A DNA stretch of 64,000 bases from an uncultured Dokdonia sp. (GTDB lineage: Bacteria > Bacteroidota > Bacteroidia > Flavobacteriales > Flavobacteriaceae), in contig CAJXSW010000001.1 of NCBI GenBank assembly GCA_913060645.1, positions 1 to 64,000 of the forward strand. The letters are read 5' to 3'. The notes under the pieces are model-generated. The model had not been told where the DNA came from. It was given only the letters and a program-made list of their open reading frames with translations, and made no database searches. This document shows positions 3,698 to 37,728 of the stretch, piece after piece. Every line of letters begins with the position of its first letter. Position 1 is the stretch's first letter. A program made the translations under genes and the position numbers.

Positions 3698-3740
3698 TGA
3701 TATAAGTCATAGTTTATTTTCATAGTTGTAGGTAGGTTTG
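3698..3740 (+). promoter_or_regulatory. CRP/FNR-type box plus -10, for usp at 3759
   Basis: Box TGATATAAGTCA at 3698-3709, followed by AG. The -10 box TAGGTTTG at 3733-3740 begins 35 bases after the box start. The predicted transcription start is about 12 bases before the ATG at 3759, which rules out the upstream TTG. Confidence 0.85.
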
Positions 3741-3758
3741 AGAAAGACCACCACTATT

Positions 3759-4607
3759 ATGAAAAATATCCTTTTACTTACAGACTTCACGTTAAAATCT
3801 GATAATGCTCATGCATACGCTTTTGACTTTTTTAAAGGGCAAGAGTGCGAGTTTCACTTACTCAGTATTCAAAAAACTTGGGAGTATACCACAGATGATT
3901 TAATGACCTCTAGTCCTAGAGGAAATATAGACAACGCATTACTTGGTGATAATAGAACCAAGGTGGATGGAATGATTGGTCATTATAAAGAAACTTATAA
4001 CAATAGTTCATTCACTTTTCAAGGTCATGTGGATTATGATGTATTTACAGATGCCATAAGCCAGGCTGTTACTGCATATAATATTGATTTAGTAGTATGT
4101 GGTACAGATGGTAAAACCGGGATTGTTGAAAATATATTCAGCTCACATGCTCTTAGAATTATAAGAAAAGTAGAGTGTCCTGTACTCGTAATTCCAGAAA
4201 AGTATAGATTTATAACTCCTAAGAGAATACAGTATTTACTTGATTATGATGATACTTTTGAGATGTGTGGTAAGGAACCATTAATTGACATAACTCATAA
4301 ATATGCATCTAGTATAGATGTTCTGAGACTCACCTTTGGCTTTCATATGGAAGATCATGAATTTGAATATGAGCATACAGAAATCCAGAAGTTATTTCCA
4401 AGCACAACTATAAGCTACGCTAGGCACATAGATGAAAATCCCGTAGCGGTAATAAGAGAATCTCTATTGAAGAGATCTTGCCAACTTCAAGTACTATCCG
4501 CCAAAAATCAAACTTTTTTAGAACGTATATTTTCATATTCGCATCTATCACAGATTGTTAACACTGTAACTACACCCTTGTTGATATTAAGAGATTGTAA
4601 CTCTTAA
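3759..4607 (+). CDS. tandem universal stress protein (Usp) 1
   Basis: A two-domain UspA-family protein of about 282 residues, presumably cytoplasmic, binding nucleotide and acting in stress survival. Domain 1 starts at MKNILLLTDFT and has the DLVVCGTDGKTG strand-loop, but the last element of the ATP motif reads SSHAL rather than GS, so nucleotide binding may be weakened. Domain 2 is degenerate. A TTG 21 bases upstream keeps the frame open but overlaps the -10 box, so I start at ATG 3759. It is followed 11 bases later by a TauE-like transporter gene, forming a two-gene operon under the CRP/FNR-type box. Confidence 0.88.
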   Translation: MKNILLLTDFTLKSDNAHAYAFDFFKGQECEFHLLSIQKTWEYTTDDLMTSSPRGNIDNALLGDNRTKVDGMIGHYKETYNNSSFTFQGHVDYDVFTDAISQAVTAYNIDLVVCGTDGKTGIVENIFSSHALRIIRKVECPVLVIPEKYRFITPKRIQYLLDYDDTFEMCGKEPLIDITHKYASSIDVLRLTFGFHMEDHEFEYEHTEIQKLFPSTTISYARHIDENPVAVIRESLLKRSCQLQVLSAKNQTFLERIFSYSHLSQIVNTVTTPLLILRDCNS

Positions 4608-4618
4608 CCTTAGGTTGT

Positions 4619-5350
4619 ATGCTCACTAGATACCTTCCCGTATTTTTATTACTAGCCTTACTGGCCGAAATTTTAGGAACCGTAGGTGGATTTGGGTCAT
4701 CAGTATTTTTTGTGCCCATAGCAAATTTCTACTTTGATTTTCAATCGGTACTTGGTATCACGGCACTATTTCACTTGTCTAGCAACGTTACTAAGATCGC
4801 TTTTTTTAGAAAGGGCTTAGATAAGCGTCTCTTGCTTTATCTAGGTATTCCTGCCGTAATTTTTGTGACGATAGGAGCATTTGCAAGCAAATATGTAGAC
4901 CCTACATTTCTAGGACTTATACTGGGCATATTTCTCATTCTCTTGAGTCTTACTTTTTTGATATTTAAAAAACTAACCATAAAAGATTCTCCTAAAAATG
5001 CAATCACGGGAGGCATACTTTCTGGTTTGAGTGCAGGGTTGCTAGGTACAGGAGGAGCGATACGAGGTATTACTATGGCGGCCTTCAAGATGGATAAGGC
5101 AACTTTTATTGCAACCTCTGCGGTGATTGATTTTGGCGTAGACTTTAGTAGGACTGTCATTTATTTTTATAACGGATACATACATACGCATGATCTTTAC
5201 CTAGCTCCCTTATTACTCGTAGTAGCAGTCATTGGTACGTGGATAGGTAAGAAAATTTTAAACCATTTTTCGCAAGAGCAATTTAGAACTTTTGTACTTG
5301 TATTGATTTTACTCGTTGGTATCGCCAGTATTGCGTCAGATTATATTTGA
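4619..5350 (+). CDS. TauE/SafE family membrane transporter
   Basis: A 243-residue integral membrane protein with about eight hydrophobic segments and the two GG-rich repeats typical of the TauE/SafE (sulfite exporter/anion permease) family: GTVGGFGSSVFFVPIANF near the N terminus and GLLGTGGAIRGI in the second half. Substrate is not predictable. It follows the Usp gene by 11 bases and would be co-transcribed from the CRP/FNR-type promoter at 3698. It converges on the patatin gene with a palindromic repeat between them. Confidence 0.87.
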   Translation: MLTRYLPVFLLLALLAEILGTVGGFGSSVFFVPIANFYFDFQSVLGITALFHLSSNVTKIAFFRKGLDKRLLLYLGIPAVIFVTIGAFASKYVDPTFLGLILGIFLILLSLTFLIFKKLTIKDSPKNAITGGILSGLSAGLLGTGGAIRGITMAAFKMDKATFIATSAVIDFGVDFSRTVIYFYNGYIHTHDLYLAPLLLVVAVIGTWIGKKILNHFSQEQFRTFVLVLILLVGIASIASDYI

Positions 5351-5418
5351 ACGAGTTCAGCTATCTAGAGTTATGAGCTCTCTGTTGTAAATGCTATGAT
5401 TGATGTAAAATATTGTTA

Positions 5419-5434
5419 CGCTTTCGCGAAAGCG
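5419..5434. repeat. 16-bp palindrome, copy 2 (intergenic)
   Basis: Perfect CGCTTTCGCGAAAGCG between the convergent TauE-like and patatin genes. It could form a hairpin, but lacks the T run of a terminator. Confidence 0.95.
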
Positions 5435-5463
5435 TTATTATCACCATACAAAGTCTTGAAAAC

Positions 5464-6225: not shown

Positions 6226-6284
6226 GATTGATTTATTATAATGCTAAGATAGCAAACCGTGTAAAGGAATATCTTAAGATTTAC

Positions 6285-6981: not shown

Positions 6982-7482
6982 TTATAAGATCTTTTTTAAC
7001 ACGGAGTACATAAAGGATTGTAGTCGATACATTTCTGTTCTACCTGTTTTTTTTCCTATTCTACCCGCAATATAAAGACCAATCCAAACAAGAAAAAGCA
7101 GTATCATCCCTAATAATGGAAATATATAAGACAATGTCAAAGCGATATTAGTGTACAGCCACACTGCACTTGCCATAAATAAAATAAAAACTATAAAATG
7201 AAAAAACATAAATAGTGTCCATACCGTTGGGCTAGGTCCATAAAGTCCCTTTATTACAGTAGGTTGTGTATCTATTTTATAGACTTCAAGATGTAGTTGT
7301 GGAGACCAGAAATGTTGCTCATTCTTAGGTATGCTTATAAAGATATGATCATCTGCTCGATGTACTATAAAGTCTTTTGAGACTGCCCCTACATCTTCAT
7401 AAGCACGTAGAATCGTTTCTGGAAGCGCAGTATACTCAAGCGTAAAACGCGGTCTTAATACAATATTATTAGGAAGTTCCAT
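6982..7482 (-). CDS. two-TM membrane protein of unknown function
   Basis: A 166-residue protein. The first 95 residues are soluble, with mixed beta content and an HxxDxHIFIS stretch. Two hydrophobic helices follow (about residues 97-115 and 120-143), then a basic tail. I do not recognise the family. Its gene is read leftward and shares, with the divergent outer-membrane gene, the CRP/FNR-type box at 7566-7577. On this strand a TATATTTA -10 box sits at the standard distance, so it is probably expressed with the low-oxygen set. Confidence 0.7.
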   Translation of the reverse strand: MELPNNIVLRPRFTLEYTALPETILRAYEDVGAVSKDFIVHRADDHIFISIPKNEQHFWSPQLHLEVYKIDTQPTVIKGLYGPSPTVWTLFMFFHFIVFILFMASAVWLYTNIALTLSYIFPLLGMILLFLVWIGLYIAGRIGKKTGRTEMYRLQSFMYSVLKKIL

Positions 7483-7534: not shown

Positions 7535-7577
7535 TAAATATAGTTCTGTTCTATGGTATGTAATATGACCGTTGTCA
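7535..7577 (-). promoter_or_regulatory. CRP/FNR-type box plus -10, leftward direction
   Basis: The box at 7566-7577 reads TGACAACGGTCA on this strand. The -10 box TATATTTA runs from 7542 to 7535, 35 bases from the box start. It serves the gene beginning at 7482. Confidence 0.75.
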
Positions 7578-7608
7578 TAGTATTCCCTATACGTAGCCAA
7601 TAGCTTTG
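7566..7608 (+). promoter_or_regulatory. CRP/FNR-type box plus -10, rightward direction
   Basis: Box TGACCGTTGTCA at 7566-7577, followed by TAG. The -10 box TAGCTTTG at 7601-7608 has the standard spacing. It serves the outer-membrane gene at 7639 and shares its box with the leftward promoter. Confidence 0.85.
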
Positions 7609-7638: not shown

Positions 7639-8208
7639 ATGAAACATCTTTTCCAACTTCTTTTGTTAGGTCTTACCATGTCCAGTTATGCTCAAGTATG
7701 GAGTGTAGAGTTACGACCTACTTTACATATTCCTACTCGGGAAGTAGCAAATCAAAAGTTGCGCATAGGTAATGGACTAGAGTTGACAGGAGTTTTATCT
7801 ATAGGTAAGCGCACAGATCTATATGGCGGTCTTATCTGGAATCGCTTTGATACGGATGAAGGTTTTGAAGAGTCTGATATAGAATTTATACAAAAAGGTT
7901 TTCTCTTTGGGGGGATGGTGTCATTCTCTATACTTGAATCCCAGAAAAATCCTTTTTATGTACGAGCTGGCTTAACCCTAATGACCGTAGACACAGAGCG
8001 TACTGAAGGAAATTTTATTATTAAAACAGATCCCGCAATTGGTACTCATCTAGGGCTGGGGATGAAAATTATAAGCTTAGGAAACTGGCATGTGCTTCCA
8101 GAGGTGCGCTACGGAAATTCTTCACACAGATATCAAGAAGCAGGTGAATATCGCCATATCTCCTTTGGTAATATTTCTATTACAGCAGCATTGAGAAGGA
8201 GTTTTTAA
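7639..8208 (+). CDS. small outer-membrane beta-barrel protein
   Basis: A 189-residue protein with a signal peptide (MKHLFQLLLLGLTMSSYAQ) and alternating amphipathic strands ending in a C-terminal aromatic residue (RRSF), as in small outer-membrane beta-barrels. It is likely an OmpA-barrel or OmpW-sized porin of unknown function. It stands between two CRP/FNR-type promoters, the second of which drives the next gene. The fold is inferred from strand pattern only. Confidence 0.72.
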   Translation: MKHLFQLLLLGLTMSSYAQVWSVELRPTLHIPTREVANQKLRIGNGLELTGVLSIGKRTDLYGGLIWNRFDTDEGFEESDIEFIQKGFLFGGMVSFSILESQKNPFYVRAGLTLMTVDTERTEGNFIIKTDPAIGTHLGLGMKIISLGNWHVLPEVRYGNSSHRYQEAGEYRHISFGNISITAALRRSF

Positions 8209-8245: not shown

Positions 8246-8288
8246 TGATAATTATCATAGTCCCTACACTTTGATCTTTCTAGATTTA
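8246..8288 (+). promoter_or_regulatory. CRP/FNR-type box plus -10, for the hibernation-factor gene
   Basis: Box TGATAATTATCA at 8246-8257, followed by TAG. The -10 box TAGATTTA is at 8281-8288, and the ATG at 8307 follows 18 bases later. Confidence 0.84.
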
Positions 8289-8306: not shown

Positions 8307-8606
8307 ATGACAACTATTTTTCAATATGTAAAGATTAAAGAAAGCGATGCGTTAAGTGCTGCTACAGAGGCTCAACTTGAAAAGCTCCATAAAAAATATC
8401 CAGAACTTATAAGAGCGCAAGTCTTTTTTAAAATGGAGAATACTCCAGCTCCAGAGCAACAAACCTGCGAGATAGAATTAAGCGCTCCTGGTCCTAGACT
8501 ATTTGCCACTACAACTGCTGTACACTTTGAAACAGCAATGAAGGAAACCATCTCAGACCTCGATAAACAACTGAGTAAACGTAAAGGAATATTAAATACA
8601 CACTAA
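8307..8606 (+). CDS. ribosome hibernation factor-like protein (HPF/RaiA fold)
   Basis: A 99-residue protein resembling the short HPF/YfiA family, which binds the 30S subunit and silences ribosomes in stress. It has the beta-alpha-beta-beta-beta-alpha order: VKIKESDALSAATEAQLEKLHKKYP, then RAQVFFKME, a CEIELSAPGPRLFATTTA strand pair and a final basic helix ending QLSKRKG. Sequence match to true HPF is moderate. It is 10 bases upstream of a Usp gene and has its own CRP/FNR-type promoter, so ribosome silencing and Usp synthesis would be co-induced. Confidence 0.75.
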   Translation: MTTIFQYVKIKESDALSAATEAQLEKLHKKYPELIRAQVFFKMENTPAPEQQTCEIELSAPGPRLFATTTAVHFETAMKETISDLDKQLSKRKGILNTH

Positions 8607-8616: not shown

Positions 8617-9453
8617 ATGAAAAAGATATTAGTACCTGTAGACTTTTCGAAACATTCAGAATATGCACTTGAGACTGCTTCCGCTTTCGCGAAAGCGCAC
8701 AACGCAGAGATTATATTACTCCACATGTTAGGCTTATCAGATAGTCTTCTTCCTAAGGATGAAAGCGAAGGAGTAAACCAAGCTGTCTTCCATATGAAAC
8801 TTGCCGAAAAGCAATTTAAAGAGTTTAGAGATAAACCTTATATGAAAGGCATCACAGTCACTGAAGAAGTTCAAAATCATACAGTTTTTCATGATATCAA
8901 CGAGCTTGCATCCCAGCACAATGTAGACTTGATAGTCATGGGATCACATGGTGTTAAAGGACTCAGAGAAGAGTTTGTAGGGTCAAATACTGAGAAAGTG
9001 GTGCGTAGCTCCACGATACCCGTGCTAGTAGTTAAAGAAAAAATGACCTCTTTTATACCTAAGAATGTTGTTTTTGCCTGTGACTTTAAATTAGAAAATA
9101 TCAAAGCTTACCGAGAAGCTATTCCACTTTTTGAAGAAATGGAGGCTCGTATCCATCTTGTATATGTGAATCTCCCTACAGATCGCTTTAAAAGCTCAAA
9201 GGAGATAGAAGAAACCATGGCAGCCTTTATGCGTGCAGCAGAGTTTGGGACAGAATTACATCAGGAAGATCTTGTGATTGTAAACGGTTATACCATAGAA
9301 AGCGGACTTTATGAATATGCAGAAAAGGTAGGTGCAGATGCACTTGCAATGCCTACTCATGGTCGTAAAGGGCTAGCACATTTCTTTGCAGGTAGCGTGG
9401 CAGAGAATATAGCAAATCACTCAACACTACCTGTGTTTACTTTTAAAATGTAA
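8617..9453 (+). CDS. tandem universal stress protein (Usp) 2
   Basis: A 278-residue protein with two UspA domains, and the least degenerate of the eight in this window. Domain 1 has the ATP motif G-x2-G-x9-GS as GSHGVKG...VGSN, and domain 2 also keeps HGRKG...AGSV, so both halves may bind nucleotide. It has an in-frame palindromic repeat early in domain 1, read SAFAKAH. It is co-transcribed with the hibernation-factor gene and followed by a strong bidirectional terminator. Confidence 0.93.
   Translation: MKKILVPVDFSKHSEYALETASAFAKAHNAEIILLHMLGLSDSLLPKDESEGVNQAVFHMKLAEKQFKEFRDKPYMKGITVTEEVQNHTVFHDINELASQHNVDLIVMGSHGVKGLREEFVGSNTEKVVRSSTIPVLVVKEKMTSFIPKNVVFACDFKLENIKAYREAIPLFEEMEARIHLVYVNLPTDRFKSSKEIEETMAAFMRAAEFGTELHQEDLVIVNGYTIESGLYEYAEKVGADALAMPTHGRKGLAHFFAGSVAENIANHSTLPVFTFKM
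8682..8697. repeat. 16-bp palindrome, copy 3 (coding)
   Basis: Perfect copy in the first helix of Usp 2, read AFAKA. Confidence 0.95.
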
Positions 9454-9527: not shown

Positions 9528-10427
9528 TTATCTTGAAGCTAGCAACAAAGGTTGTTGATAGTGCTCTATAAGATGCATAATCTCTATGAGCGGTATTACA
9601 ACGCTATACTGGCCAGTATATGATGGGCAAATGATACAGTCATCAAAATAAAACTCAATAGCGTTATCGTTAATTACAAAGTTATTTTTATAGGCTTTAA
9701 AGTCGGTATCAGATATTTCCCAGCAGTCATAAAACATTTCGCCAGAGTGAATTTGCTCGTAAATGGTTTGATTAATTAAATCAAATACTTTCTTCTCTGC
9801 TCCAGCGATAAAAAAGTCATCAAAATAGATGAACTCCTCCTTATCTACATTGTAATTAAGACAGTCAAACATGTAAGTAGAGTGCAACATTCCTGAGTAA
9901 TAATTTTCTTTATAGAGCAGTATACTTACAAGATTTCTCTCATTTGCGTGAAGTTTAAAATCTATAATACGTTTATCTCTAAAACGCTTAATACTCAAAG
10001 TGTCGCATAGTAGTTCTTTATCCTCAAGAATCTCATTTACAGTGCGCTCTACATTTAAGTAACTCTCTGCCATATATTCATTAAACGCCTTGTATTTAGG
10101 GTTTACAGTCTCGTTAAGATAAGGATAGGTGTAATCTAGAAGATAATCTTCTGCCTCTTTATATAGATTTTTTGACTCTACAACGGCTTTTAAAATTGTG
10201 CGATCATCTGGTATTTTGATCAACGCTTCTTTTTTTGAAAGCTGACTTTTTGCTTGAATTTCCATGATGTCCTTATCTGTGAGGTACAGAGAATCTGCAG
10301 AGTCTGGATCGAGTAATCCGGCTTCTTTCTGAGGTTCGGTATTTAATGGTGTTTTCTTCAGTTTATCTGTAGGTTCTTTGCAGCTAGCTAGTAATAATAT
10401 TGCGATTAGGGTTAGATAGGTTTTCAT
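9528..10427 (-). CDS. lipoprotein with RsiV-like (DUF3298) domain
   Basis: A 299-residue lipoprotein: signal peptide with lipobox LLASC, Cys16. A charged linker follows, then a domain from about residue 90 with the DUF3298/RsiV pattern (YYSGMLHSTYMFDCLNY, a DDFF loop, and the closing AIEFYFDDCIICPSYTGQYSVVIPL strand series). In Firmicutes this fold senses lysozyme; here it is attached to the outer membrane and the ligand is unknown. A CRP/FNR-type box with a standard -10 lies upstream, so it belongs with the low-oxygen set. Confidence 0.8.
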   Translation of the reverse strand: MKTYLTLIAILLLASCKEPTDKLKKTPLNTEPQKEAGLLDPDSADSLYLTDKDIMEIQAKSQLSKKEALIKIPDDRTILKAVVESKNLYKEAEDYLLDYTYPYLNETVNPKYKAFNEYMAESYLNVERTVNEILEDKELLCDTLSIKRFRDKRIIDFKLHANERNLVSILLYKENYYSGMLHSTYMFDCLNYNVDKEEFIYFDDFFIAGAEKKVFDLINQTIYEQIHSGEMFYDCWEISDTDFKAYKNNFVINDNAIEFYFDDCIICPSYTGQYSVVIPLIEIMHLIEHYQQPLLLASR

Positions 10428-10447: not shown

Positions 10448-10490
10448 TAAATGTAATTTTGAGATTGATGGATTACTATGATATCCGTCA
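10448..10490 (-). promoter_or_regulatory. CRP/FNR-type box plus -10, for the lipoprotein gene
   Basis: On the minus strand the box reads TGACGGATATCA, followed by TAG (10490 to 10479). The -10 box TACATTTA runs 10455 to 10448, with standard spacing. Confidence 0.83.
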
Positions 10491-13555: not shown

Positions 13556-13575
13556 TGGGATTGTATTTACACCTG

Positions 13576-13617
13576 CAAATTGAGTCCTTGAAACGGTGTA
13601 GTCTATGATATTTATCA
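13576..13617 (-). promoter_or_regulatory. CRP/FNR-type box, leftward use (weaker -10)
   Basis: The symmetric box at 13606-13617 reads TGATAAATATCA on this strand. A 7-base CAATTTG (13582 to 13576) stands at nearly the standard distance, one base shorter than the consensus. It probably drives the TerB-like/cbpA operon. Confidence 0.55.
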
Positions 13618-13648
13618 TAGGCATATCTTGCTTTTATTCTCAAGTTTA
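13606..13648 (+). promoter_or_regulatory. CRP/FNR-type box plus -10, for the sigma-like gene
   Basis: Box TGATATTTATCA at 13606-13617, followed by TAG. The -10-like CAAGTTTA at 13641-13648 is at the standard spacing, and the ATG at 13671 follows. Confidence 0.75.
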
Positions 13649-13670
13649 TAGGGTATTAAAAATTATACCC

Positions 13671-14664: not shown

Positions 14665-16170
14665 ATGGAATTTTTTGAAGAAAGTATTGAAGAAGCTTTT
14701 ATGATTCTCTTTGAAGGAGCGTCAGAAGGGATTGTAGTTGTAAATGCAGACCAGATGATTGTAGCAACAAATCAATCTGCTCGCGACATTTTTGGCTATG
14801 AAAAGAAGGAGTTAGAAGGCAGGTCGCTAGAAACCTTAATCCCTATGCGTTTTCATAAGAAGCACGTGGGGCACTTTGATAAGTTTATGCATCATAGTGA
14901 TAAACGTGAGATGGGCAAGGGGCGTGATCTTTATGGGCTATGCAAAGACGGAAGTCAAGTACCTGTAGAAGCCGGACTTAATCCTTTTGTTCTGCACAAA
15001 AAGAAGTACGTCATGGCACTCGTGACAAATATTACTGTGCGTAAAAATGCCGAAAAAGAGCTCAAGCAATGGGCAAACATCTTTAACGAGTCTTTAAATG
15101 AGATTTTCATATTTGACGCTGTAAGCCTGCGCTTTATTGATGCAAATATAGGCGCAAGAGAAAATATAGGGTATACGCTCGAAGAGCTGTCATTAATGAC
15201 ACCCGTAGATATTAAGCCAGACTTTACAGAAAAACAATTCCGAGATTACATAGCGCCCTTGATTAATGGTACAGAGCGCAAAATGATTTTTAATACCACC
15301 CATGAGCGTAAAGATGGAACTACATATCCAGTAGAGGTACACCTGCAACCATCTAATTCTGAAAATACGAGTACACTTGTTGCCATTATTCTTGATATTA
15401 CAGAGCGTGTAAATTATACAGATAGACTTGAGAAGACTGTAGAGGAGCGCACACATCAGCTAGAAGAAGCCTTGCAAACAGAAATAGAACTCAACGAGCT
15501 TAAAACAAAGTTTTTGTCTCTTGTTTCTCATGAGTTTAAAACACCATTGAGTGGTATTTTAACTTCGGCGACACTCGCAGGAAAGTATACAACAGAAGAG
15601 CAACAAGATAAAAGAGTAAAGCACCTTACCACGATACAGAATAAGGTTAAGTATCTCAATACTATTATAGATGATTTTCTATCTATCGAGAGGCTAGAAA
15701 CTGGAAAGACTAATTATGCATACACGACGTTCCCACTTAGCAAAGTGCTTAACGAGGTAATTTATGATGCAAACATGCACCTTAAAGATGGCCAGTATAT
15801 TAAGTATCCTACAGATGCAGATGAGTTTATTATTAATTTTGATGAGAAAATTATGGAGCTCGTGTTGAGCAATTTAATATATAACGCCATTAAATATTCA
15901 TCTGAAGGCACGATAGTAGATCTCCAACTCAAAAATAATGAGCAAGGACTCGAGATTAAGATTATTGATCAAGGAATAGGGATACCAGAACACGAGCAAA
16001 AATTTATTTTTAATCGATATTTTAGAGCAGAAAATGCATTGTTAAATGCAGGAACAGGGATAGGACTTAACATTGTCAAGACGCATTTAGAAAACCTTGG
16101 AGCTTCTATTAGTTTTGAAAGTAAACATAATGAAGGTTCTACATTTACAGTTACAATACCAATCACATAG
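14665..16170 (+). CDS. soluble PAS-PAS sensor histidine kinase, FixL-like
   Basis: A 501-residue cytoplasmic kinase without membrane segments. PAS1 spans about residues 10-128 and PAS2 about 132-250; a coiled coil (252-280), a HisKA domain with the phospho-acceptor His289 in LVSHEFKTPLSG, and a HATPase domain with N, G1 (DQGIGIP) and G2 (GTGIGL) boxes follow. In PAS1, LIPMRFHKKH and GKGR align without gaps to the rhizobial FixL haem pocket as I remember it: His67 with the haem ligand His200 and Arg87 with Arg220. Many non-haem PAS domains share a similar His, so haem binding is a hypothesis. It ends 3 bases before the receiver-CRP gene and is surely its partner. Confidence 0.9.
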   Translation: MEFFEESIEEAFMILFEGASEGIVVVNADQMIVATNQSARDIFGYEKKELEGRSLETLIPMRFHKKHVGHFDKFMHHSDKREMGKGRDLYGLCKDGSQVPVEAGLNPFVLHKKKYVMALVTNITVRKNAEKELKQWANIFNESLNEIFIFDAVSLRFIDANIGARENIGYTLEELSLMTPVDIKPDFTEKQFRDYIAPLINGTERKMIFNTTHERKDGTTYPVEVHLQPSNSENTSTLVAIILDITERVNYTDRLEKTVEERTHQLEEALQTEIELNELKTKFLSLVSHEFKTPLSGILTSATLAGKYTTEEQQDKRVKHLTTIQNKVKYLNTIIDDFLSIERLETGKTNYAYTTFPLSKVLNEVIYDANMHLKDGQYIKYPTDADEFIINFDEKIMELVLSNLIYNAIKYSSEGTIVDLQLKNNEQGLEIKIIDQGIGIPEHEQKFIFNRYFRAENALLNAGTGIGLNIVKTHLENLGASISFESKHNEGSTFTVTIPIT

Positions 16171-16173
16171 ATT

Positions 16174-17220
16174 ATGAAAAAAGTACTTTTAATAGAGGAT
16201 GATATGGCGCTGCGTGAGAATACAGCAGAACTTCTAGAGCTTTCTAACTATGAGGTTACGACGGCTCCTAATGGTCGCATAGGTATTGACCTAGCTATAG
16301 CAAACCCACCACAAATAGTAGTTTGCGATATCATGATGCCAGAGGTAGATGGTTATGGAGTGCTAGAAGCACTATCTAGCAACCCTAGCACAAGTCATAT
16401 TCCATTTATTTTTCTTTCGGCTAAGACAGAGCACAAGGAAATTAGAAAAGGAATGGATATGGGAGCAGATGATTATCTTACAAAACCTTTTGAAGAAGAA
16501 GAACTTATAAGTGCCATAGAAAGTAGAATTGCAAAGGCAACGATACTTAATAACATATTAAAAGAAGAACCAGTAGCAAAGGAGGAGGACTCACTGCGTA
16601 GTCTCAATGAGCTTAAAAATTTTTTTGATGACGAGGGTGGAGAGTTAAGCTTTAATAAAGGCGCATTAATCTATAAGGAAGGAGAACATTCTAACATGAT
16701 TTACCTCATCCTCAAAGGTGTGGTAAAAACACATAAGATGGATGAAAGTGGAAAGGAACTTATCACCGGACTTTTAAAAGCGGATGATTTTCTTGGTTTT
16801 ACCTCATTTATTGAAAACATAGCTTACCTCGAGTCTGCTACGGCTATAGAAGATACCGTTGTCGTGGGAGTGAGTAAAAACGAACTAAAAGAAGTGCTTG
16901 AGAAAAGTAAGAATGTATCCTTAGAGTTAATGGAACTTCTCACAGATAACCTTGCAGAGATTAAAGGACAATTATTACAAATGGCATACAGCTCTGTGCG
17001 CAAAAAGACAGCGCAAACCATTTTACAGTTTGCTGTAATTCTTAATAAAAAGCCAGAAGAAGGAATTAAAATTGCACGTAATGATCTAGCAAGTGTAGCA
17101 GGTATCGCTACAGAAAGTTTAATAAGAACACTATCTGGTTTTAAAAAAGAAGGTCTTATTGAAATAGAAGGACGCAACATCAGGTTGATTGATGTGGAAG
17201 GACTTGAGATGATAGACTAA
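16174..17220 (+). CDS. response regulator fused to a CRP/FNR transcription factor
   Basis: A 348-residue fusion. The receiver domain is residues 1-120, with phospho-acceptor Asp52 (CDIMMPEVDG), acidic pocket E8/D9/D10 and Lys104. A cyclic-nucleotide-binding-type domain runs about 145-265, and a Crp-type winged helix about 285-345 with the recognition helix in GIATESLIRTLSGFKKEGL, keeping the Glu and Arg that read TGA half-sites. The protein has a single Cys, so it cannot hold an FNR-type Fe-S cluster. Phosphorylation by the adjacent kinase is the likely input. It is the best candidate to bind the TGAY-N4-RTCA boxes around it. Confidence 0.93.
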   Translation: MKKVLLIEDDMALRENTAELLELSNYEVTTAPNGRIGIDLAIANPPQIVVCDIMMPEVDGYGVLEALSSNPSTSHIPFIFLSAKTEHKEIRKGMDMGADDYLTKPFEEEELISAIESRIAKATILNNILKEEPVAKEEDSLRSLNELKNFFDDEGGELSFNKGALIYKEGEHSNMIYLILKGVVKTHKMDESGKELITGLLKADDFLGFTSFIENIAYLESATAIEDTVVVGVSKNELKEVLEKSKNVSLELMELLTDNLAEIKGQLLQMAYSSVRKKTAQTILQFAVILNKKPEEGIKIARNDLASVAGIATESLIRTLSGFKKEGLIEIEGRNIRLIDVEGLEMID

Positions 17221-17231: not shown

Positions 17232-17274
17232 TGACTTTTGTCATATTTTATGGCTCAACAGTAAAATACATTTG
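17232..17274 (+). promoter_or_regulatory. CRP/FNR-type box plus -10, for usp at 17295
   Basis: Box TGACTTTTGTCA at 17232-17243. The -10 box TACATTTG at 17267-17274 has exact standard spacing. The box starts only 12 bases after the regulator's stop codon. Confidence 0.87.
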
Positions 17275-17294
17275 TGCTATTATATATAGTACTC

Positions 17295-18110: not shown

Positions 18111-18153
18111 TGATAAAAGTCATAGTTTACAGAGTGTTAAGTTTCTAGTTTTG
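18111..18153 (+). promoter_or_regulatory. CRP/FNR-type box plus -10, for the usp 4-5-6 operon
   Basis: Box TGATAAAAGTCA at 18111-18122, followed by TAG. The -10 box TAGTTTTG is at 18146-18153. Confidence 0.87.
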
Positions 18154-19891: not shown

Positions 19892-20736
19892 TGATACGTG
19901 TTTTAGTACCTACAGATTTCTCTAAGCATGCATTAGATGCATTCACTTATGGGCAGCAGCTTTTTAAAGGAGAAAAAGTGACGTTTACATTATATCATGC
20001 TTATGAGCCATCTGCATTACAATTATTAGGAAATAAAAGTCCGCTCGCACTTTCTAAGATCTATAGGGATTTAAAAGACGAGTCAGAAGTGCGCTTATCT
20101 GTATTTCTATCAGAAATTCTAAGTAAAGATAAGAGTACGACTTTCTTTTACAAAACGGCAAGCTATTCTGGCCACCTTAAGGATGGTATTGCAGCGCTAG
20201 AGGAAAACGCTTATGATTATATATTGATGGGAACAAAAGGAGCAACGGGACTTAAAGAAGTTTTTATGGGTAGTATGACCCATAGCATAGTAGCACTTCA
20301 CAAAAAAATACCGCTACTTGTCATTCCAGAAAATGCTGTATTTAATGATCCAGACAGCATAGGCTTTGCAACAGATTTTGCAAGAGCGTATAACCATGAG
20401 GATTTACAACCACTTATCGTGCTTACTAAGTTATGGAAAGCAACGGTGCGCATGGTAGAGGTATATGAAAAACCAGAGATAACTCAAGTAAAAAAAGATC
20501 ATTTACAACAACTAGAAGACTTACTTTCAGGGGTAGATTATCGATTTCATACAGTCCCTGAGTTTTCATCATTAGAAAATTGTATAAATGTGTTTGATGA
20601 TGAACTCAACATAGATTTACTTGTGATGATTGATTATCCTAAAACATTTTTTGAAAGTCTCATGCGCGAGCCTGTTGTTAAGAAGATGACATTCCACACT
20701 ACACTACCATTTCTTATACTTCCGAGCCATAACTGA
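19891..20736 (+). CDS. tandem universal stress protein (Usp) 6
   Basis: A 281-residue two-domain Usp with an intact domain 1 nucleotide motif (GTKGATG...GSMT) and a degenerate domain 2. It is the last gene of the usp 4-5-6 operon; the next Usp gene begins behind its own CRP/FNR-type promoter. Paralogue-level similarity to Usp 5 and 7 indicates expansion by tandem duplication. Confidence 0.93.
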   Translation: MIRVLVPTDFSKHALDAFTYGQQLFKGEKVTFTLYHAYEPSALQLLGNKSPLALSKIYRDLKDESEVRLSVFLSEILSKDKSTTFFYKTASYSGHLKDGIAALEENAYDYILMGTKGATGLKEVFMGSMTHSIVALHKKIPLLVIPENAVFNDPDSIGFATDFARAYNHEDLQPLIVLTKLWKATVRMVEVYEKPEITQVKKDHLQQLEDLLSGVDYRFHTVPEFSSLENCINVFDDELNIDLLVMIDYPKTFFESLMREPVVKKMTFHTTLPFLILPSHN

Positions 20737-20776
20737 TTATTGTCATAGAATAAGAGTGTATCTCTCACTAGTTTAG
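20734..20776 (+). promoter_or_regulatory. CRP/FNR-type box plus -10, for usp at 20796
   Basis: Box TGATTATTGTCA at 20734-20745, followed by TAG. Its first three bases are the TGA stop codon of Usp 6. The -10 box TAGTTTAG is at 20769-20776. Confidence 0.83.
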
Positions 20777-20795: not shown

Positions 20796-21644
20796 ATGGC
20801 ACACATACTAGTACCCACAGATTTTTCTAAGAACGCTTACAACGCATTATTTTATGCAACTAGATTGTATCCTAATGAGGAATGTATAATAACGCTAGTA
20901 CACTCTTTTGAAAATTTATTTTCCACCAATACTAGTCGTATAGATATAGGTAGAAATGAGCAATTATATGATGAGTTAGAACGTGCAGCTTTTGATAAGC
21001 TTGATACGTTGAAGCATGAAATAACTCTTGATAGTGAGGGCATTTCTCTTGTTATTGATATGGTAACGAGCGCACAGCCTTTATACAAAATAGTAAATAA
21101 GCTTATCATAAATACAAACGTAGATGTAGTGGTGATGGGAACTAAAGGCTCTTCAGGAATGCGAGAAGTATTTCTAGGAAGCCAAACGGTAAAACTAATT
21201 AAGAAAATAAAGCCTGTGCCAGTGTTTGTAGTGCCTCAAAGCGCCACTTTTCAAGCGCCTACAAAGGTTGCTTATGCTACAGATCTTAAAATTGACTATG
21301 CTCAGTATCCACTAGAGATTATAAAGGAAATCATAAGAATACATAAATCTAAGTTGTACATCACACATATTTATAATCAAATGAGCCCAGGTCAAACTGT
21401 GGAGACTAATTATAGAAAACTCAAGCACAAACTAGAAGATGTCTCTTATACTACTCACTGGCTGTCTAGTATCACTAAGATGGAAGATGCACTAGGTGTT
21501 TTTATTAATGAACATGATATCAATTTACTAGTGTTGATGTACCACAAAAGCGGCTTTTTAAAGAAACTCTTTAATAAATCGTTTGTAGATAAATTAAGCT
21601 TTCACTCAGAAATACCTCTACTTATATTACCAGAATCATTCTGA
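20796..21644 (+). CDS. tandem universal stress protein (Usp) 7
   Basis: A 282-residue two-domain Usp. Domain 1 has an intact GTKGSSG...GSQT nucleotide motif; domain 2 is degenerate. It is a single-gene unit between two CRP/FNR-type promoters; the following box starts inside its stop codon. Confidence 0.93.
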   Translation: MAHILVPTDFSKNAYNALFYATRLYPNEECIITLVHSFENLFSTNTSRIDIGRNEQLYDELERAAFDKLDTLKHEITLDSEGISLVIDMVTSAQPLYKIVNKLIINTNVDVVVMGTKGSSGMREVFLGSQTVKLIKKIKPVPVFVVPQSATFQAPTKVAYATDLKIDYAQYPLEIIKEIIRIHKSKLYITHIYNQMSPGQTVETNYRKLKHKLEDVSYTTHWLSSITKMEDALGVFINEHDINLLVLMYHKSGFLKKLFNKSFVDKLSFHSEIPLLILPESF

Positions 21645-21684
21645 TATATATCATAGTTAATACAATAGTACTCCCGTATTTTTA
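21642..21684 (+). promoter_or_regulatory. CRP/FNR-type box plus -10, for usp at 21708
   Basis: Box TGATATATATCA at 21642-21653, followed by TAG, again overlapping the preceding stop codon. The -10 box TATTTTTA is at 21677-21684. Confidence 0.83.
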
Positions 21685-23513: not shown

Positions 23514-23556
23514 TGATAATTGTCATAGTTTAGGTAGCTCTACTGCGCTACTTTTA
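23514..23556 (+). promoter_or_regulatory. CRP/FNR-type box plus -10, for the helical protein at 23586
   Basis: Box TGATAATTGTCA at 23514-23525, followed by TAG. The -10 box TACTTTTA is at 23549-23556. Confidence 0.86.
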
Positions 23557-26100: not shown

Positions 26101-26143
26101 CAAAAGTAGCTGATGGCTTGCTTGAAAAAGATGATATAAATCA
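26101..26143 (-). promoter_or_regulatory. CRP/FNR-type box plus -10, for the CBS protein gene
   Basis: On the minus strand the box reads TGATTTATATCA (26143 to 26132). The -10 box TACTTTTG runs 26108 to 26101. A separate box at 26220 serves the divergent ccoI gene. Confidence 0.86.
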
Positions 26144-26219: not shown

Positions 26220-26262
26220 TGATATTTGTCATAATTTAAAAACCAACATAATCTCAAATTTG
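26220..26262 (+). promoter_or_regulatory. CRP/FNR-type box plus -10, for ccoI
   Basis: Box TGATATTTGTCA at 26220-26231. The -10-like CAAATTTG at 26255-26262 is at the standard spacing, and the ATG at 26308 follows. Confidence 0.82.
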
Positions 26263-29234: not shown

Positions 29235-29277
29235 TGACAATTGTCATAATTCAAAAACAACTTCAATCTTAATTTTA
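29235..29277 (+). promoter_or_regulatory. CRP/FNR-type box plus -10, for the cbb3 oxidase operon
   Basis: Box TGACAATTGTCA at 29235-29246. The -10 box TAATTTTA is at 29270-29277, and the ccoS ATG follows at 29297. Confidence 0.87.
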
Positions 29278-34618: not shown

Positions 34619-34632
34619 AAAACAAAAAAACT

Positions 34633-34767
34633 ATGAGTACAGAGCATAAAAAATGTTGTGATGGCTGTAAAAAAGGACAGCCAGGAACTAACGAAGCATG
34701 CAGCGCAAAGTTGATGATGGAAGCGCTGAAGAATAATCAAGAAATCACTAAAACACAAGAGTTATGA
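34633..34767 (+). CDS. small Cys-rich protein (44 aa)
   Basis: A 44-residue soluble protein with CCDGCKK at residues 9-15 and a further Cys later, reminiscent of a metal-binding motif. The frame extends upstream without a start codon of its own, so the ATG at 34633, behind an A-rich stretch, is used. It overlaps ccoH by four bases (ATGA). Its place between ccoG and ccoH suggests Cu or Fe-S handling for the oxidase; this is inference. Confidence 0.65.
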   Translation: MSTEHKKCCDGCKKGQPGTNEACSAKLMMEALKNNQEITKTQEL

Positions 34768-35210
34768 AATGGAACTGGGGAAAGGGTATTGTAGTGGCCA
34801 TGGCTTGTTTTATGGGCTTTATTCTGTACATGGTTATCACGATGAGTACAGATGATAATTATAGCCATGATCTTGTGACAGAAGAGTATTATGCTAAAGA
34901 AATGGCATATCAAACCGAAATAGATGCAGAGACTAATGCGCGCAACCTCGTAGGAGAGATTAGTGGGAAACGCACGCCAGAAGGATGGTTACTCACCTTC
35001 CCACCGTCTATTTCAGAAAGTACAAATAAAGGAAAAGTGTTTCTATACAGACCGTCTAATCAGCAACTTGATTTTGAAGTGCCTTTGGCTATTTCAGGAT
35101 CTAATTTGCTCATACCTGACAATCAGCTGATAGACGGTCGATGGAACATTATCATAGAGTGGACAGACGGGGAAGAGGAATTCATGTATAAAAAGTCAAT
35201 CGTTTACTAA
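34764..35210 (+). CDS. ccoH: FixH/CcoH family protein
   Basis: A 148-residue protein with one N-terminal membrane helix and a periplasmic beta domain, of the FixH family. The first 60 residues (KWNWGKGIVVAMACFMGFILYMVITMSTDDNYSHDLVTEEYYAKEMAYQ) carry the family signature of DDNYS-HDLV-EYY. CcoH stabilises the CcoN-CcoO-CcoP complex. It overlaps the next gene by one base. Confidence 0.9.
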   Translation: MKWNWGKGIVVAMACFMGFILYMVITMSTDDNYSHDLVTEEYYAKEMAYQTEIDAETNARNLVGEISGKRTPEGWLLTFPPSISESTNKGKVFLYRPSNQQLDFEVPLAISGSNLLIPDNQLIDGRWNIIIEWTDGEEEFMYKKSIVY

Positions 35211-35917
35211 TGTTGTGGTCTGCACTCATATTTGGTCTTTTGGGCAGTTTCCACTGTGTGGGAATGTGTGGTCCCATTGCATTTATGTTGCCCGTAGATC
35301 GTAAAAATCCTGTAAAAAGAGCTTTCCAATTAATGAGTTACCACACTGGTCGTATACTTACTTACAGTGTTTTGGGCTTAGTATTTGGGATTGTAGGTAA
35401 AAGTTTTAATCTCTTTGGTATTCAGCAGCAACTATCTATAATCATAGGTGTACTTATGATTGTAGTTATTCTCATACCCACTAAAATTTTCAATAAATAC
35501 AACTTCTCACGACCGTTATATAAGGCAGTTGGGAAAGTAAAGAGCTCCATGGGAACTGCTCTTAAGAAAAAAGATCCAGGTACGTTTTTTACTATAGGAT
35601 ATCTCAACGGACTATTGCCTTGCGGACTTGTATATATGGCAATTTTTGGCGCACTTGCTTCTGGTGGTGCTTGGGAAGGAGGATTGTATATGGCAGTTTT
35701 TGGATTAGGTACCATTCCATTAATGACCACTGCTATCTATTTAGGTAATTTTTTAAAAGGAAAAGCAAAGCAGCGCATCGTTAAGATGATTCCTGTTTTT
35801 GTAGTCATTGTAGGAGTCTTATTTATAGTACGGGGTCTTGGCCTTGGTATTCCGTACGTATCACCATCAAAAATGGTAAGCATAGAAAAAGTGGCTGCAC
35901 AACATTCTTGTCATTAA
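35210..35917 (+). CDS. SafE/TauE-like membrane protein of the cbb3 operon
   Basis: A 235-residue membrane protein with about six helices and the FHCVGMCGP motif near the N terminus, plus LLPCGLVYMAIFGA in the middle. It is the SafE/UreH-like protein regularly found at the end of cbb3 clusters, related to DsbD-type cytochrome-biogenesis transporters, and possibly transporting a metal or reductant. The start overlaps ccoH. Confidence 0.86.
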   Translation: MLWSALIFGLLGSFHCVGMCGPIAFMLPVDRKNPVKRAFQLMSYHTGRILTYSVLGLVFGIVGKSFNLFGIQQQLSIIIGVLMIVVILIPTKIFNKYNFSRPLYKAVGKVKSSMGTALKKKDPGTFFTIGYLNGLLPCGLVYMAIFGALASGGAWEGGLYMAVFGLGTIPLMTTAIYLGNFLKGKAKQRIVKMIPVFVVIVGVLFIVRGLGLGIPYVSPSKMVSIEKVAAQHSCH

Positions 35918-35939
35918 TAACAACCAAACATTTATAATT

Positions 35940-36086
35940 ATGGAACATTTTTTAATACTTCTCGTAGACTGGGGAATGGGAGCACTACTCATAGGAGTAT
36001 TTGCCTTAGTTTGTATCACTCTTGTACTTATCGTACTAAACATGATAAAGGGAGACTCAAAAAAATCTGATACTGATGAAAAGTAG
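35940..36086 (+). CDS. small single-TM protein (48 aa)
   Basis: A 48-codon frame, ATG to TAG, 22 bases after the SafE-like gene. The product has one long hydrophobic helix (about residues 4-35) and a short Lys/Asp-rich tail. It could be a small oxidase-associated subunit; function unknown. It ends the cbb3 operon before the terminator. Confidence 0.6.
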   Translation: MEHFLILLVDWGMGALLIGVFALVCITLVLIVLNMIKGDSKKSDTDEK

Positions 36087-36254
36087 AGGATTACAAATAG
36101 TAAGAGAATATACAAGTACTTTATTAAACTGCTTAGTTTTTAAAGGTCTCGACCTATTTATATCATTACAATGGCTTTTAACTTATAACAAAGATCGTAT
36201 TAGTTCGCAAAGATAATCGTGAACTTGATGAGGTCTTATAATCTTCAAGAGCAT

Positions 36255-36288
36255 AAAAAAAGGGAAGCAGTAATGCTTCCCTTTTTTA
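36255..36288. terminator. bidirectional terminator between the cbb3 operon and hemN
   Basis: GGGAAGCA (36262-36269) pairs with TGCTTCCC (36274-36281) across a GTAA loop, with an A run on the left and a T run on the right. Confidence 0.92.
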
Positions 36289-36307
36289 GTAAACGTTGAG
36301 GTGATTT

Positions 36308-37669
36308 TTAAACCGTCATAGAAAATAGCTGAGTCTCTGGTTTATTGCGCTGTAATCTCATGTCAAACGGAAGGCATATATTTCTCACAAAAGGACGTCC
36401 CTTTTCTGTAACAATTAATTTTCTTGCATGTATTTCTAGAAGTCCGTCGTTTTCTAGTTCCTTTAATTTTATAAGAACATCTGGAAGCTCTGCAAAATTT
36501 CCTTGATCCTTATCCCAAGAAGTCTCAAACGAGCACATTAAATTAAGAATATGTTGTCTGATGATAAGATCTTCTTCAGTAAGGATATGACCTCTAAAAA
36601 TAGGTAGAATACCATCTTCTATAAGCTGTTGATATTCCTCTATATTTTTTGCATTCTGAGCAAAACTATACCAGCTATCACTTATGGCAGATACTCCTAA
36701 GCCTATCATTACTTGCGTTTTGCTAGCGTTATATCCCATAAAGTTACGATGTATAGTTCCCGATTGCTGGGCTTCAAATAGTGCATCTGTTTTAAGCGCA
36801 AAGTGATCCATACCTATCTCAACATACCCTGCTTTAACTAGCATCTTTTTGCCTATCTCATACTGCATTCTCTTCTGGTCTGCACTAGGTAAATCTCCAT
36901 CCTTAAATCCTCGCTGTCCATTACCTTTTATCCATGGCACGTGAGCGTAGCTATAAAAAGCGATACGGTCTGGCTGAAGAGAGATGGTTTTATTTATAGT
37001 ATTTATAACATCATCCTGGGTTTGAAACGGTAGTCCATAAATGATATCATGTCCTACAGATTCATAACCTGTTGCATGAGCGTTTTCTGTAGCGTTTTGC
37101 ACGTGAGCATAAGGTTGCACACGATTTATTGCTCTCTGTACCGTTGTATTGTAATCTTGAACTCCATAACAAACTCTAGTAAACCCTTTGTTATATAGTG
37201 ACTCAAGATGCTCTTTTGTAGTATTATTAGGGTGTCCCTCAAAGCTGAGTTCAAAAGTGCTAGCCTTTTTTGTAAGTGCAAAAATCCCGTCCATAAGACG
37301 TTCTAGATGTGCTGGTGAGAAAAATGTAGGAGTTCCTCCACCTAAGTGTAGTTGTTTAATCACCGGCTTGTCTCCTAGTAAAGTTACGTACATCGCAAGT
37401 TCCTTAAGTACAGATTGTATATAAGGAATCTCAACATCATGATTCTTTGTAATACGCTTGTTACATCCACAAAAAGTACACATACTCTCACAATAAGGTA
37501 AATGTACATAGAGACTTATTCCTTGTGAAGTATTGCTTTCGCGAAAGCTTTCTTGTAAGGTATTCTTCCACTGGGTGAGTGAAAAGTTATCTTGATCCCA
37601 ATAAGGCACAGTAGGATAACTTGTATATCGTGGTCCTGCCACATTGTACTTTGATATAAGGGTACACAT
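36308..37669 (-). CDS. hemN: oxygen-independent coproporphyrinogen III dehydrogenase HemN
   Basis: A 453-residue radical SAM enzyme that makes protoporphyrinogen IX precursors without oxygen. The cluster motif is C60-E-S-M-C64-T-F-C67-G-C69, followed by a GGGTP region. It differs from HemW by its N-terminal YNVAGPRYTSYP and full length. A CRP/FNR-type box with a perfect TAATTTTG -10 box precedes it, as expected for haem synthesis at low oxygen. A palindromic repeat is carried near residues 41-45, read SFRES. Confidence 0.95.
   Translation of the reverse strand: MCTLISKYNVAGPRYTSYPTVPYWDQDNFSLTQWKNTLQESFRESNTSQGISLYVHLPYCESMCTFCGCNKRITKNHDVEIPYIQSVLKELAMYVTLLGDKPVIKQLHLGGGTPTFFSPAHLERLMDGIFALTKKASTFELSFEGHPNNTTKEHLESLYNKGFTRVCYGVQDYNTTVQRAINRVQPYAHVQNATENAHATGYESVGHDIIYGLPFQTQDDVINTINKTISLQPDRIAFYSYAHVPWIKGNGQRGFKDGDLPSADQKRMQYEIGKKMLVKAGYVEIGMDHFALKTDALFEAQQSGTIHRNFMGYNASKTQVMIGLGVSAISDSWYSFAQNAKNIEEYQQLIEDGILPIFRGHILTEEDLIIRQHILNLMCSFETSWDKDQGNFAELPDVLIKLKELENDGLLEIHARKLIVTEKGRPFVRNICLPFDMRLQRNKPETQLFSMTV
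37535..37548. repeat. palindrome, copy 12 (coding, 14-bp core)
   Basis: GCTTTCGCGAAAGC inside hemN, read FRES. Confidence 0.93.
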
Positions 37670-37685
37670 TGATTTTGAGTTTTTT

Positions 37686-37728
37686 CAAAATTACTATATG
37701 ACAAAAACAGAGAATATGATGGATGTCA
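37686..37728 (-). promoter_or_regulatory. CRP/FNR-type box plus -10, for hemN
   Basis: On the minus strand the box reads TGACATCCATCA (37728 to 37717). The -10 box TAATTTTG runs 37693 to 37686, 16 bases before the ATG. Confidence 0.87.

Follow-up and report, generated by a model that had tools for sequence, protein, structure and literature searches.

A candidate kinase/receiver-CRP pair and its predicted cbb3 and Usp regulon in a 34-kb island of an uncultured Dokdonia sp.

The window, a 64,000-nucleotide stretch from an uncultured Dokdonia sp., contained a 34-kb island with eight Usp genes, a gene for an S30AE hibernation-type factor, a CBS-domain protein gene, ccoI, the cbb3 oxidase operon, and a hemN-like gene. 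Within the island, a PAS-PAS histidine kinase gene was located 3 bases upstream of a gene encoding a protein with a receiver, a cNMP-binding fold, and a CRP-type helix-turn-helix, hereafter REC-CRP (Table 1). The first-pass annotation of this DNA had named no reader of the boxes described below and had overlooked these two genes at 14665-17220.

Table 1. Regulatory genes, candidate promoters, and associated genes in the island (window positions; 4/5, four of the five fixed -10 bases matched).
Feature	Position	Strand	Gene or annotation	Relatives with the composite
PAS-PAS histidine kinase (Pfam)	14665..16170	+	candidate oxygen sensor	
REC-CRP (PF00072, PF00027, PF13545)	16174..17220	+	candidate box reader	
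Box and -10	3698..3740	+	Usp 3738-4607	
Box and -10	7566..7608	+	7639-8208, without Pfam match	
7566 box, opposite direction	7535..7577	-	6982-7482, without Pfam match	
Box and -10	8246..8288	+	S30AE hibernation-type factor 8307-8606 and Usp 8617-9453	10/10 having the gene
Box and -10	10448..10490	-	DUF3298 protein 9528-10427	
Box and weak -10 (CAAGTTTA)	13606..13648	+	precedes 13605-14426, then kinase and REC-CRP genes	3/14, all 4/5
13606 box, opposite direction, weak -10 at offset 34	13576..13617	-	towards 13151-13624, DnaJ, DinB, MscS	8/10 carrying the 13151 homologue
Box and -10	17232..17274	+	Usp 17274-18101	11/11
Box and -10	18111..18153	+	Usp 18177-19022 (and Usp 19034-19891, 19891-20736)	11/11
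Box and -10 (TAGTTTAG, 4/5)	20734..20776	+	Usp 20796-21644	7/7, exact in 4
Box and -10	21642..21684	+	Usp 21708-22559	
Box and -10	23514..23556	+	23586-23990, without Pfam match	
Box and -10	26101..26143	-	CBS-domain protein 25659-26078	
Box and weak -10 (CAAATTTG)	26220..26262	+	ccoI 26308-28728	8/8, all 4/5
Box and -10	29235..29277	+	cbb3 operon	8/8
cbb3 operon members	29515-31719, 31918, 33177, 34764, 35210-35917		ccoNO, FixP, CcoG, FixH, and the gene at 35210-35917, respectively	
Box and -10	37686..37728	-	hemN-like radical SAM gene 36308-37669	5/5

A motif scan of the window recovered all fourteen TGAY-N4-RTCA boxes previously noted by eye, at 3698, 7566, 8246, 10479, 13606, 17232, 18111, 20734, 21642, 23514, 26132, 26220, 29235, and 37717. 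The window held 17 such boxes, whereas 100 shuffles gave 5.0 on average and never more than 11, and none of the three further boxes (3201, 22760, and 25488) had TAnnTTT[A/G] at offset 35. When every box of positions 1-38000 was taken in both directions (34 directions), 12 had an exact TAnnTTT[A/G] at offset 35, counted from the first base of the box, whereas offsets 17 and 24 had one exact match each and the remaining offsets from 12 to 59 had none; the chance expectation per single offset was 0.05. The first-pass annotation had reported this spacing in 15 of 16 promoter directions, a set picked post hoc. That figure holds if 4/5 matches are counted, because the 12 exact matches are joined by three 4/5 matches at offset 35 (13606+, 20734+, and 26220+); 13606- had a 4/5 match at offset 34.

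The box alone was scarcely enriched in the 3.11-Mb genome (239 copies versus 183 for the reversed control) and was dropped as evidence. On the other hand, the composite of box and -10 occurred 15 times versus 0 in the control, with 12 copies inside the window, and a stricter form (T after TCA, and YAnnTTT) occurred 15 times versus 1, with 14 copies inside the island. The same geometry was found around REC-CRP in 21 loci of relatives, where the -10 stood at offset 35 in 108 of 336 box directions, compared with 4 for the runner-up offset. The constant 35-base spacing of the predicted promoters would centre the box near -41.5, as in class II activation. The earlier proposal that a CRP/FNR-type regulon with a constant, class II-like promoter geometry is concentrated in the island was thus borne out by offset 35 in 12/34 directions and by 14/15 composites.

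The predicted targets largely agreed with those listed earlier. All eight Usp genes were confirmed, served by six boxes, one of which (18111) would serve three of them, and the hibernation factor, CBS protein, ccoI, cbb3, and hemN also stood. However, the supposed sigma-like gene 13605-14426 gave no hit in Pfam (E<=0.001) or NCBIfam (E<=0.01), and the 10479 box, assigned earlier to MscS, faces the DUF3298 gene on the minus strand; the minus direction of the 13606 box would instead serve the TerB-like/DnaJ/MscS operon. Autoregulation of the kinase operon was not supported, because its composite was weak both here and in the few relatives that carried it.

REC-CRP exceeded the PF00027 and PF13545 cut-offs, which places it in the CRP/FNR superfamily. 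The acidic pair, phospho-Asp, Ser/Thr, and Lys expected of a response-regulator receiver (D9, D10, D52, S82, and K104) were invariant in 14 homologues, and so were E314 and R318 of the E-x-x-x-R recognition helix, a helix of the FNR type that goes with a TGA palindrome. This helix, TESLIR, resembles that of the four-Cys flavobacterial FNRs, which is mostly TESxIR (letters were counted in FNR rows only, because of mis-hits in six REC-CRP rows, and REC-CRP helices were read separately). The only Cys of REC-CRP was located in the receiver, unlike the four cysteines of Fe-S FNR. In cAMP receptor protein, cAMP is contacted by a Glu and an Arg of the phosphate-binding cassette; the GEL...PRTSS of M. 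tuberculosis CRP aligned with GFT...AYLES in REC-CRP, which does not retain these contacts. The FixJ and FixK models matched residues 3-123 and 154-346 only, each with 60 bits against cut-offs of 255 and 300, respectively; the output domain is HTH_Crp_2 rather than the LuxR/GerE of FixJ, and REC-CRP carries a fused receiver, unlike FixK, a stand-alone CRP/FNR protein transcribed by FixJ.

The first PAS domain of the kinase had multi-sensor kinase PAS 10jx as its best solved match and also matched heme-PAS FixL 1d06 (E 9.7e-10) and DosP. Overall it was only distantly FixL-like, and its H67 and R87 aligned with FixL residues that we take to be the proximal heme His and the distal Arg, respectively. 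The His was kept in 15/16 flavobacterial kinases and 12/12 others, the sole exception being in G010, a genome without ccoNO, and the distal position was variable (R in 14/16 and 7/12, respectively). In Sphingobacterium, REC-CRP was paired with a kinase predicted to be of the FixL heme-PAS type, adjoining hemN and ccoI. The PAS of this kinase matched FixL structures at E 2.6e-30, and a 180-aa piece of it scored 122 bits against the whole-protein NCBIfam FixL model, below the cut-off of 850. Among kinase-REC-CRP loci of named Bacteroidota, hemN, cco genes, or both lay no more than 10 kb away in 6/13; the offset-35 composite occurred in none of the five non-flavobacterial cco/hemN loci.

We surveyed 149 genomes, representing as many genera, for REC-CRP (E<=1e-60) and four-Cys FNR (E<=1e-40). 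One or both regulators were present in 114 of 115 genomes with cbb3 oxidase (REC-CRP only in 29, FNR only in 51, and both in 34), the single genome with neither being 82% complete, and neither was present in 27 of 34 genomes without cbb3. Four members of the class with both have a REC-CRP only 41-44% identical, and two genomes were counted as FNR-positive though the match begins past the N-terminal cysteines. Seven genomes with FNR-query hits between 1e-30 and 1e-40 were counted as FNR-negative; the hit was REC-CRP in two of them and a 34-37% identical protein in the other five. Within one genus, 6/6 relatives without REC-CRP had no ccoNO and 0-3 composites, whereas 10/11 relatives with REC-CRP had ccoNO and 7-25 composites; G010 had REC-CRP (53%), no ccoNO, and 2 composites. 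Of the 27 genomes lacking both regulators and cbb3, two had many composites (10 in G178 and 16 in G187), and two genomes with four-Cys FNR but no cbb3 (G014 and G017) had only 2 and 1, respectively.

The ccoNO promoters of all 29 REC-CRP-only genomes were compared with those of 32 of the 51 FNR-only genomes. Box and -10 preceded ccoNO in 28/29 REC-CRP-only genomes. The base before TGA was C in 19/28 REC-CRP-only versus 3/31 FNR-only promoters (Fisher p 3.8e-6; like the other statistics given here, this value overstates independence because the genomes are related). The TAG that the first-pass annotation had described as usually following the box was present at 8/14 listed boxes, the respiratory and CBS boxes being without it. 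TAG followed TCA in 57/106 cases in REC-CRP loci versus 0/25 in FNR loci, but in 1/28 REC-CRP-only versus 1/31 FNR-only ccoNO promoters; it was therefore rejected as a REC-CRP mark and regarded as a feature of Usp-type promoters.

Taken together, we consider it probable from sequence comparison that the island is the regulon of its own kinase/REC-CRP pair, a shortened FixL-FixJ-FixK circuit for low oxygen that replaces four-Cys FNR. The kinase would respond to low oxygen, or to a redox signal linked to it, most likely via a FixL-type heme PAS, and, as suggested by gene adjacency, phosphorylate D52 of REC-CRP. Phosphorylated REC-CRP would then dimerise, bind CTGAY-N4-RTCAT via TESLIR, and, centred near -41.5, recruit RNA polymerase at TAnnTTTG -10 elements that have no strong -33 element. 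The cbb3 oxidase, copper pump CcoI, HemN, eight Usp, hibernation-type factor, and chaperone group would be jointly switched on, with REC-CRP substituting for the four-Cys FNR that does the same job in other flavobacteria.

Alternatively, REC-CRP may read the boxes in response to a redox, carbon/energy, or light signal, the low-oxygen genes being no more than one arm of a general dormancy programme. Most targets by number are Usp/stress genes, the PAS of the window kinase is not clearly FixL, and partner kinases of one diverged REC-CRP clade carry a LOV motif. However, the tight REC-CRP/ccoNO co-occurrence, the hemN/cco linkage in other Bacteroidota, the Sphingobacterium partner, and the PAS His, conserved except where ccoNO is missing, favour low oxygen, and we regard this alternative as possible but rather unlikely. 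The joint placing of Usp and micro-oxic genes under one box, previously taken as the main signal of the window, is seen here but is not special to it: Usp genes also lie near an FNR-type regulator or cco genes in four loci of relatives without REC-CRP, and joint control of both gene groups is known for ANR or DosR.

It is quite improbable that another CRP-family protein reads the boxes while REC-CRP controls other genes. Besides REC-CRP, the genome search turned up three CRP proteins, of the C24, C56, and C7 types. Their helices are SRVVVSR, SRPTLN, and AREVVSR, the last being that of the C24 type and sharing the E-x-x-x-R spacing. Between the C24-type gene and a small DUF2892-like gene downstream lies a composite box, which recurs with a changed centre in the relatives G006, G008, and G009; TGAC-N4-GTCA may therefore be read by at least one further CRP. 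On the other hand, relatives that have a C56- or C7-type gene and lack both REC-CRP and four-Cys FNR carried almost no composites (0 in G004 and 1 in G016), and across the 149 genera composites and ccoNO track REC-CRP or FNR.

Four-Cys FNR, whose C4, C7, C53, and C106 were present in 23/23 flavobacterial sequences and which adjoins ccoI in many relatives, was not found in this genome, and one may have been overlooked because the genome is 89.46% complete. That such an FNR in the unassembled 10% reads the respiratory boxes, leaving REC-CRP the Usp boxes, would fit the respiratory and CBS boxes without TAG and the two genomes with both proteins (G011 and G015, with FNR adjoining ccoI), but is very unlikely given that TAG does not track the regulator at ccoNO promoters, that REC-CRP is the only one of the two regulators in 29 genera with ccoNO, and that the closed genomes of the relatives G006 and G008 (REC-CRP 98% and 89% identical, respectively) have ccoNO with its box, while none of the five PF13545 matches in each is a four-Cys FNR.

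Returning to the kinase/REC-CRP circuit, we lean towards a wider reading for Bacteroidota, in which a FixL-type kinase directly phosphorylates a REC-CRP/FNR fusion that, in flavobacteria, is swappable with Fe-S FNR on common promoters. FNR would have been lost in some lineages, with cbb3 kept under REC-CRP and A changed to C before TGA, and this genus would hold nearly the whole regulon in one 34-kb island around the regulator. If so, one set of promoters receives input from two unrelated low-oxygen sensors, an Fe-S FNR and a receiver-FNR fusion driven by a kinase, which replace each other across a large environmental family. Regulator replacement would then be testable with natural genome pairs, the cbb3 and Usp genes of many Bacteroidota would gain a likely regulator, and a ready target list would come with the hypothesis that a single base, C or A before TGA, sets specificity.

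A search of the open-access literature, with subscription journals outside its scope, turned up no account of receiver-CRP regulators in Bacteroidota. In the tree, the 31 REC-CRP rows grouped in a single fork (91/88) and the FNR rows in a separate one (98/94), with lower support (86/52) for how the two are related; a recent birth of REC-CRP by a receiver joining FNR was not supported by these forks. Among known systems, Fe-S FNR, including the four-Cys flavobacterial FNR, shares the recognition helix, box, promoter geometry, and cbb3 targets with REC-CRP, which differs in having a receiver, no four cysteines, and a favoured C, not A, before TGA. DevR/DosR-type dormancy regulons are under two-component hypoxia control and include Usp genes, but have a NarL-type output, another box, and no cbb3. 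FixL-FixJ-FixK2 of Bradyrhizobium and hFixL-FxkR-FixK of Rhizobium leguminosarum would have in common with the circuit proposed here a heme-PAS-type kinase, a phospho-receiver, a CRP/FNR-family activator, a TTGAT-N4-ATCAA-like box, and fixNOQP(cbb3)/fixGHIS targets (PMC7888657). REC-CRP, with a box without the outer T/A and no LuxR-type FixJ output, joins receiver and CRP/FNR output in one protein, and therefore the intermediate transcription step of the Fix cascade would drop out. In Myxococcus xanthus, the two-component NmpRSTU system is likewise proposed to sense low oxygen and to control cbb3, a CcoI-like ATPase, and HemN, whereas NmpR is NtrC-type and sigma-54-dependent and has the site GCGCA-N5-TGCGC (PMC11841059).

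The TGAY-N4-RTCA box occurred 17 times in the window, compared with 5.0 expected and a maximum of 11 in 100 shuffles, and these 17 include all 14 sites listed in the first-pass annotation. The geometry between the box and the -10 element was a stronger signal than the box count. Among the 34 box directions in the first 38 kb, an exact TAnnTTT[A/G] was found at offset 35 from the box start in 12, once each at offsets 17 and 24, and at none of the remaining offsets from 12 to 59. The claim that 15 of 16 promoter directions carry a -10 box at 35 bases was reproduced when three four-of-five matches at offset 35 and one at offset 34 were added to the exact matches, but those directions had been picked afterwards. 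The pairing of box and -10 element at offset 35 (the composite) held up genome-wide: in the window's own genome (3.11 Mb in 219 contigs, with 89% completeness), 15 composites were found, 12 of them within the window, compared with none in reversed controls. A stricter composite (T after TCA, YAnnTTT) occurred 15 times compared with once in the reversed control, and because 14 of the 15 were located in the 34-kb island, the regulon as defined by the composite is almost confined to it. The sole exception (on contig C49), which recurs in G008 and G009, precedes genes for ferredoxin-NADP-reductase-like and 2Fe-2S ferredoxin-like proteins. Another composite, on contig C24, lies after the C24-type CRP gene and before a gene for a small membrane protein that looks DUF2892-like by eye, and recurs in G006, G008, and G009 with its centre changed.

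Pfam analysis bore out the eight Usp proteins and also identified an S30AE factor, CBS, CcoI, fused CcoNO, FixP, CcoG, FixH, a HemN-like radical SAM protein, MscS, DinB, and DnaJ in the window. Neither Pfam nor NCBIfam gave a match to the gene previously described as sigma-like at the thresholds applied, and the target of the box at 10479 had to be corrected to a DUF3298 protein. The window also encodes a fusion of an ATP-cone domain with a restriction-endonuclease-like (Mrr) domain, which is retained within the Usp island of several relatives.

Coordinates of the features found in the window, elsewhere in its genome, and in fetched loci
Feature	Coordinates (strand)	Size or position	Evidence
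PAS-PAS-HisKA-HATPase kinase	window 14665-16170 (+)	between boxes	domain search
REC-CRP: receiver, cNMP-binding, HTH_Crp_2	window 16174-17220 (+)	348 residues; starts 3 bases past kinase	domain search
ATP-cone/Mrr fusion	window 22656-23495
Stricter composite outside island (L008)	C49:12287-12329 (-)
Composite after C24-type CRP gene (L007)	C24:25363-25405 (-)
Diverged REC-CRP clade	L063:6757-11077
Diverged REC-CRP clade	L065:9610-12676

No NCBIfam model spans the receiver-CRP fusion (REC-CRP); the partial matches, all far under cut-off, were to FixJ in its first half and to FixK and Fnr in its second. In 14 homologues, D9, D10, D52, S82, and K104 of the receiver and E314 and R318 of the helix were invariant. 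The window protein contains one Cys in total and does not retain the cAMP-contact stretch. For the first PAS of the partner kinase, the matches were the multi-sensor kinase 10jx, FixL, and DosP, with E-values from 1e-10 to 1e-8. Among 16 flavobacterial partner kinases, the FixL His position was His in 15 (Tyr in G010), and the distal Arg position was Arg in 14. Another REC-CRP clade has diverged to 42-43% identity with the window protein and adjoins kinases carrying the LOV-type motif GKNCRFLQ, which suggests a variant in which blue light drives this output.

Promoters were compared gene by gene in 14 relatives with REC-CRP, each denominator being those whose fetched DNA held the gene. The composite preceded HPF in 10/10, Usp3 in 11/11, Usp4 in 11/11, ccoNO in 8/8, hemN in 5/5, and ccoI in 8/8, the last matching four of five -10 bases. 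It was absent before ccoP (0/7), ccoG (0/7), patatin (0/8), and the REC-CRP gene itself (0/14).

The search for REC-CRP, ccoNO, the composite, and the stand-alone four-Cys FNR-type regulator (FNR) covered 149 genomes, each from a different genus. Among the 115 ccoNO-positive genomes, 34 carried REC-CRP and FNR together, 29 REC-CRP alone, 51 FNR alone, and one, 82% complete, neither; the corresponding numbers for the 34 ccoNO-negative genomes were 1, 2, 4, and 27. Composites totalled 2130 compared with 79 controls, with a median of 15 in the 121 genomes with a regulator and 1 in the 28 without (Mann-Whitney p 1.5e-12, which is optimistic because the genomes are kin). Two genomes with neither regulator nevertheless had 10 and 16 composites, and the simple regulator-ccoNO rule is weakened by G014 and G017, which carry FNR without ccoNO and have only 2 and 1 composites. 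Within the window's genus, all six relatives without REC-CRP lacked ccoNO and had 0-3 composites, and 10 of 11 relatives with REC-CRP had ccoNO and 7-25 composites; G010 has REC-CRP but only 2 composites and no ccoNO.

FNR is a candidate alternative regulator of such promoters. A stand-alone CRP gene adjoins ccoI in most of 13 FNR-type cco loci fetched from relatives, and of the 51 FNR-only genomes, 32 were fetched, 31 of which had the box with a -10 element at offset 35 upstream of ccoNO. The same arrangement was present in 28 of the 29 genomes with REC-CRP alone, the box being of the strict form in 27. The base before TGA at ccoNO was C in 19/28 REC-CRP-only compared with 3/31 FNR-only promoters (p 3.8e-6). 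The recognition helix reads TESxIR in most FNRs and TESLIR in the window REC-CRP. C4, C7, C53, and C106 were common to all 23 flavobacterial FNR sequences; the E. coli FNR cysteines are C20, C23, C29, and C122, and because the third Cys sits elsewhere, the cluster ligands may differ. In the window's own genome, PF13545 was matched by four proteins, namely REC-CRP plus three whose helices differ, and a search of this 89% complete assembly with FNR as the query gave nothing at E<=1e-30. None of the five PF13545 matches in each of the closed relatives G006 and G008, all of them read, was a four-Cys FNR, and the four Cys were absent from the 5 of 6 read in G009. REC-CRPs (31 rows, 91/88) and FNRs (98/94, including one outlier) formed separate clusters in the tree, with no resolved branching order between them.

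The simplest account of the island would be a FixL-type kinase acting on an FNR-type activator that carries its own receiver. The kinase would bind heme, respond to oxygen, and transfer phosphate to the receiver of REC-CRP, whose FNR-type part would bind at the class II position and activate the promoters. The support for this putative mechanism is architectural and statistical. FixL, receivers, CRP/FNR proteins, class II sites, and oxygen-controlled cbb3 and Usp genes are known kinds (PMC7888657 and PMC11841059). Text searches of an open-access library found neither the receiver-CRP fusion nor its exchange with an Fe-S-type FNR.

A scan of named genomes yielded 13 full-length REC-CRP loci, including those of Aquimarina, Salinimicrobium, Mucilaginibacter, Arcticibacter, Sphingobacterium, and Chitinophaga. 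Fetched DNA contained hemN and/or cco genes in 6 of the 13, and TGAY-N4-RTCA occurred within 40 bases 3' of the REC-CRP gene in 7. The promoter geometry is established for flavobacteria only, since no offset-35 composite occurred in the five of these 13 loci that carry cco/hemN genes and come from other families. In the Sphingobacterium partner kinase, the PAS is of the FixL heme type (E 2.6e-30), and those of Mucilaginibacter and Arcticibacter resemble it in alignment; the window kinase is more distant. In 12 other partner kinases, beyond the 16 above, the FixL His position was His in 12/12 and the distal Arg position was Arg in 7/12.

Separately, the palindrome CTTTCGCGAAAG occurred 17 times in the 64 kb, from position 181 to 61225 (for example at 5421, 8684, 10537, 27236, and 54450), compared with 0.00 expected in shuffles. 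At about one per 3.8 kb, in both genic and intergenic DNA, it is reminiscent of repeats such as HIP1, a highly iterated palindrome of cyanobacteria.
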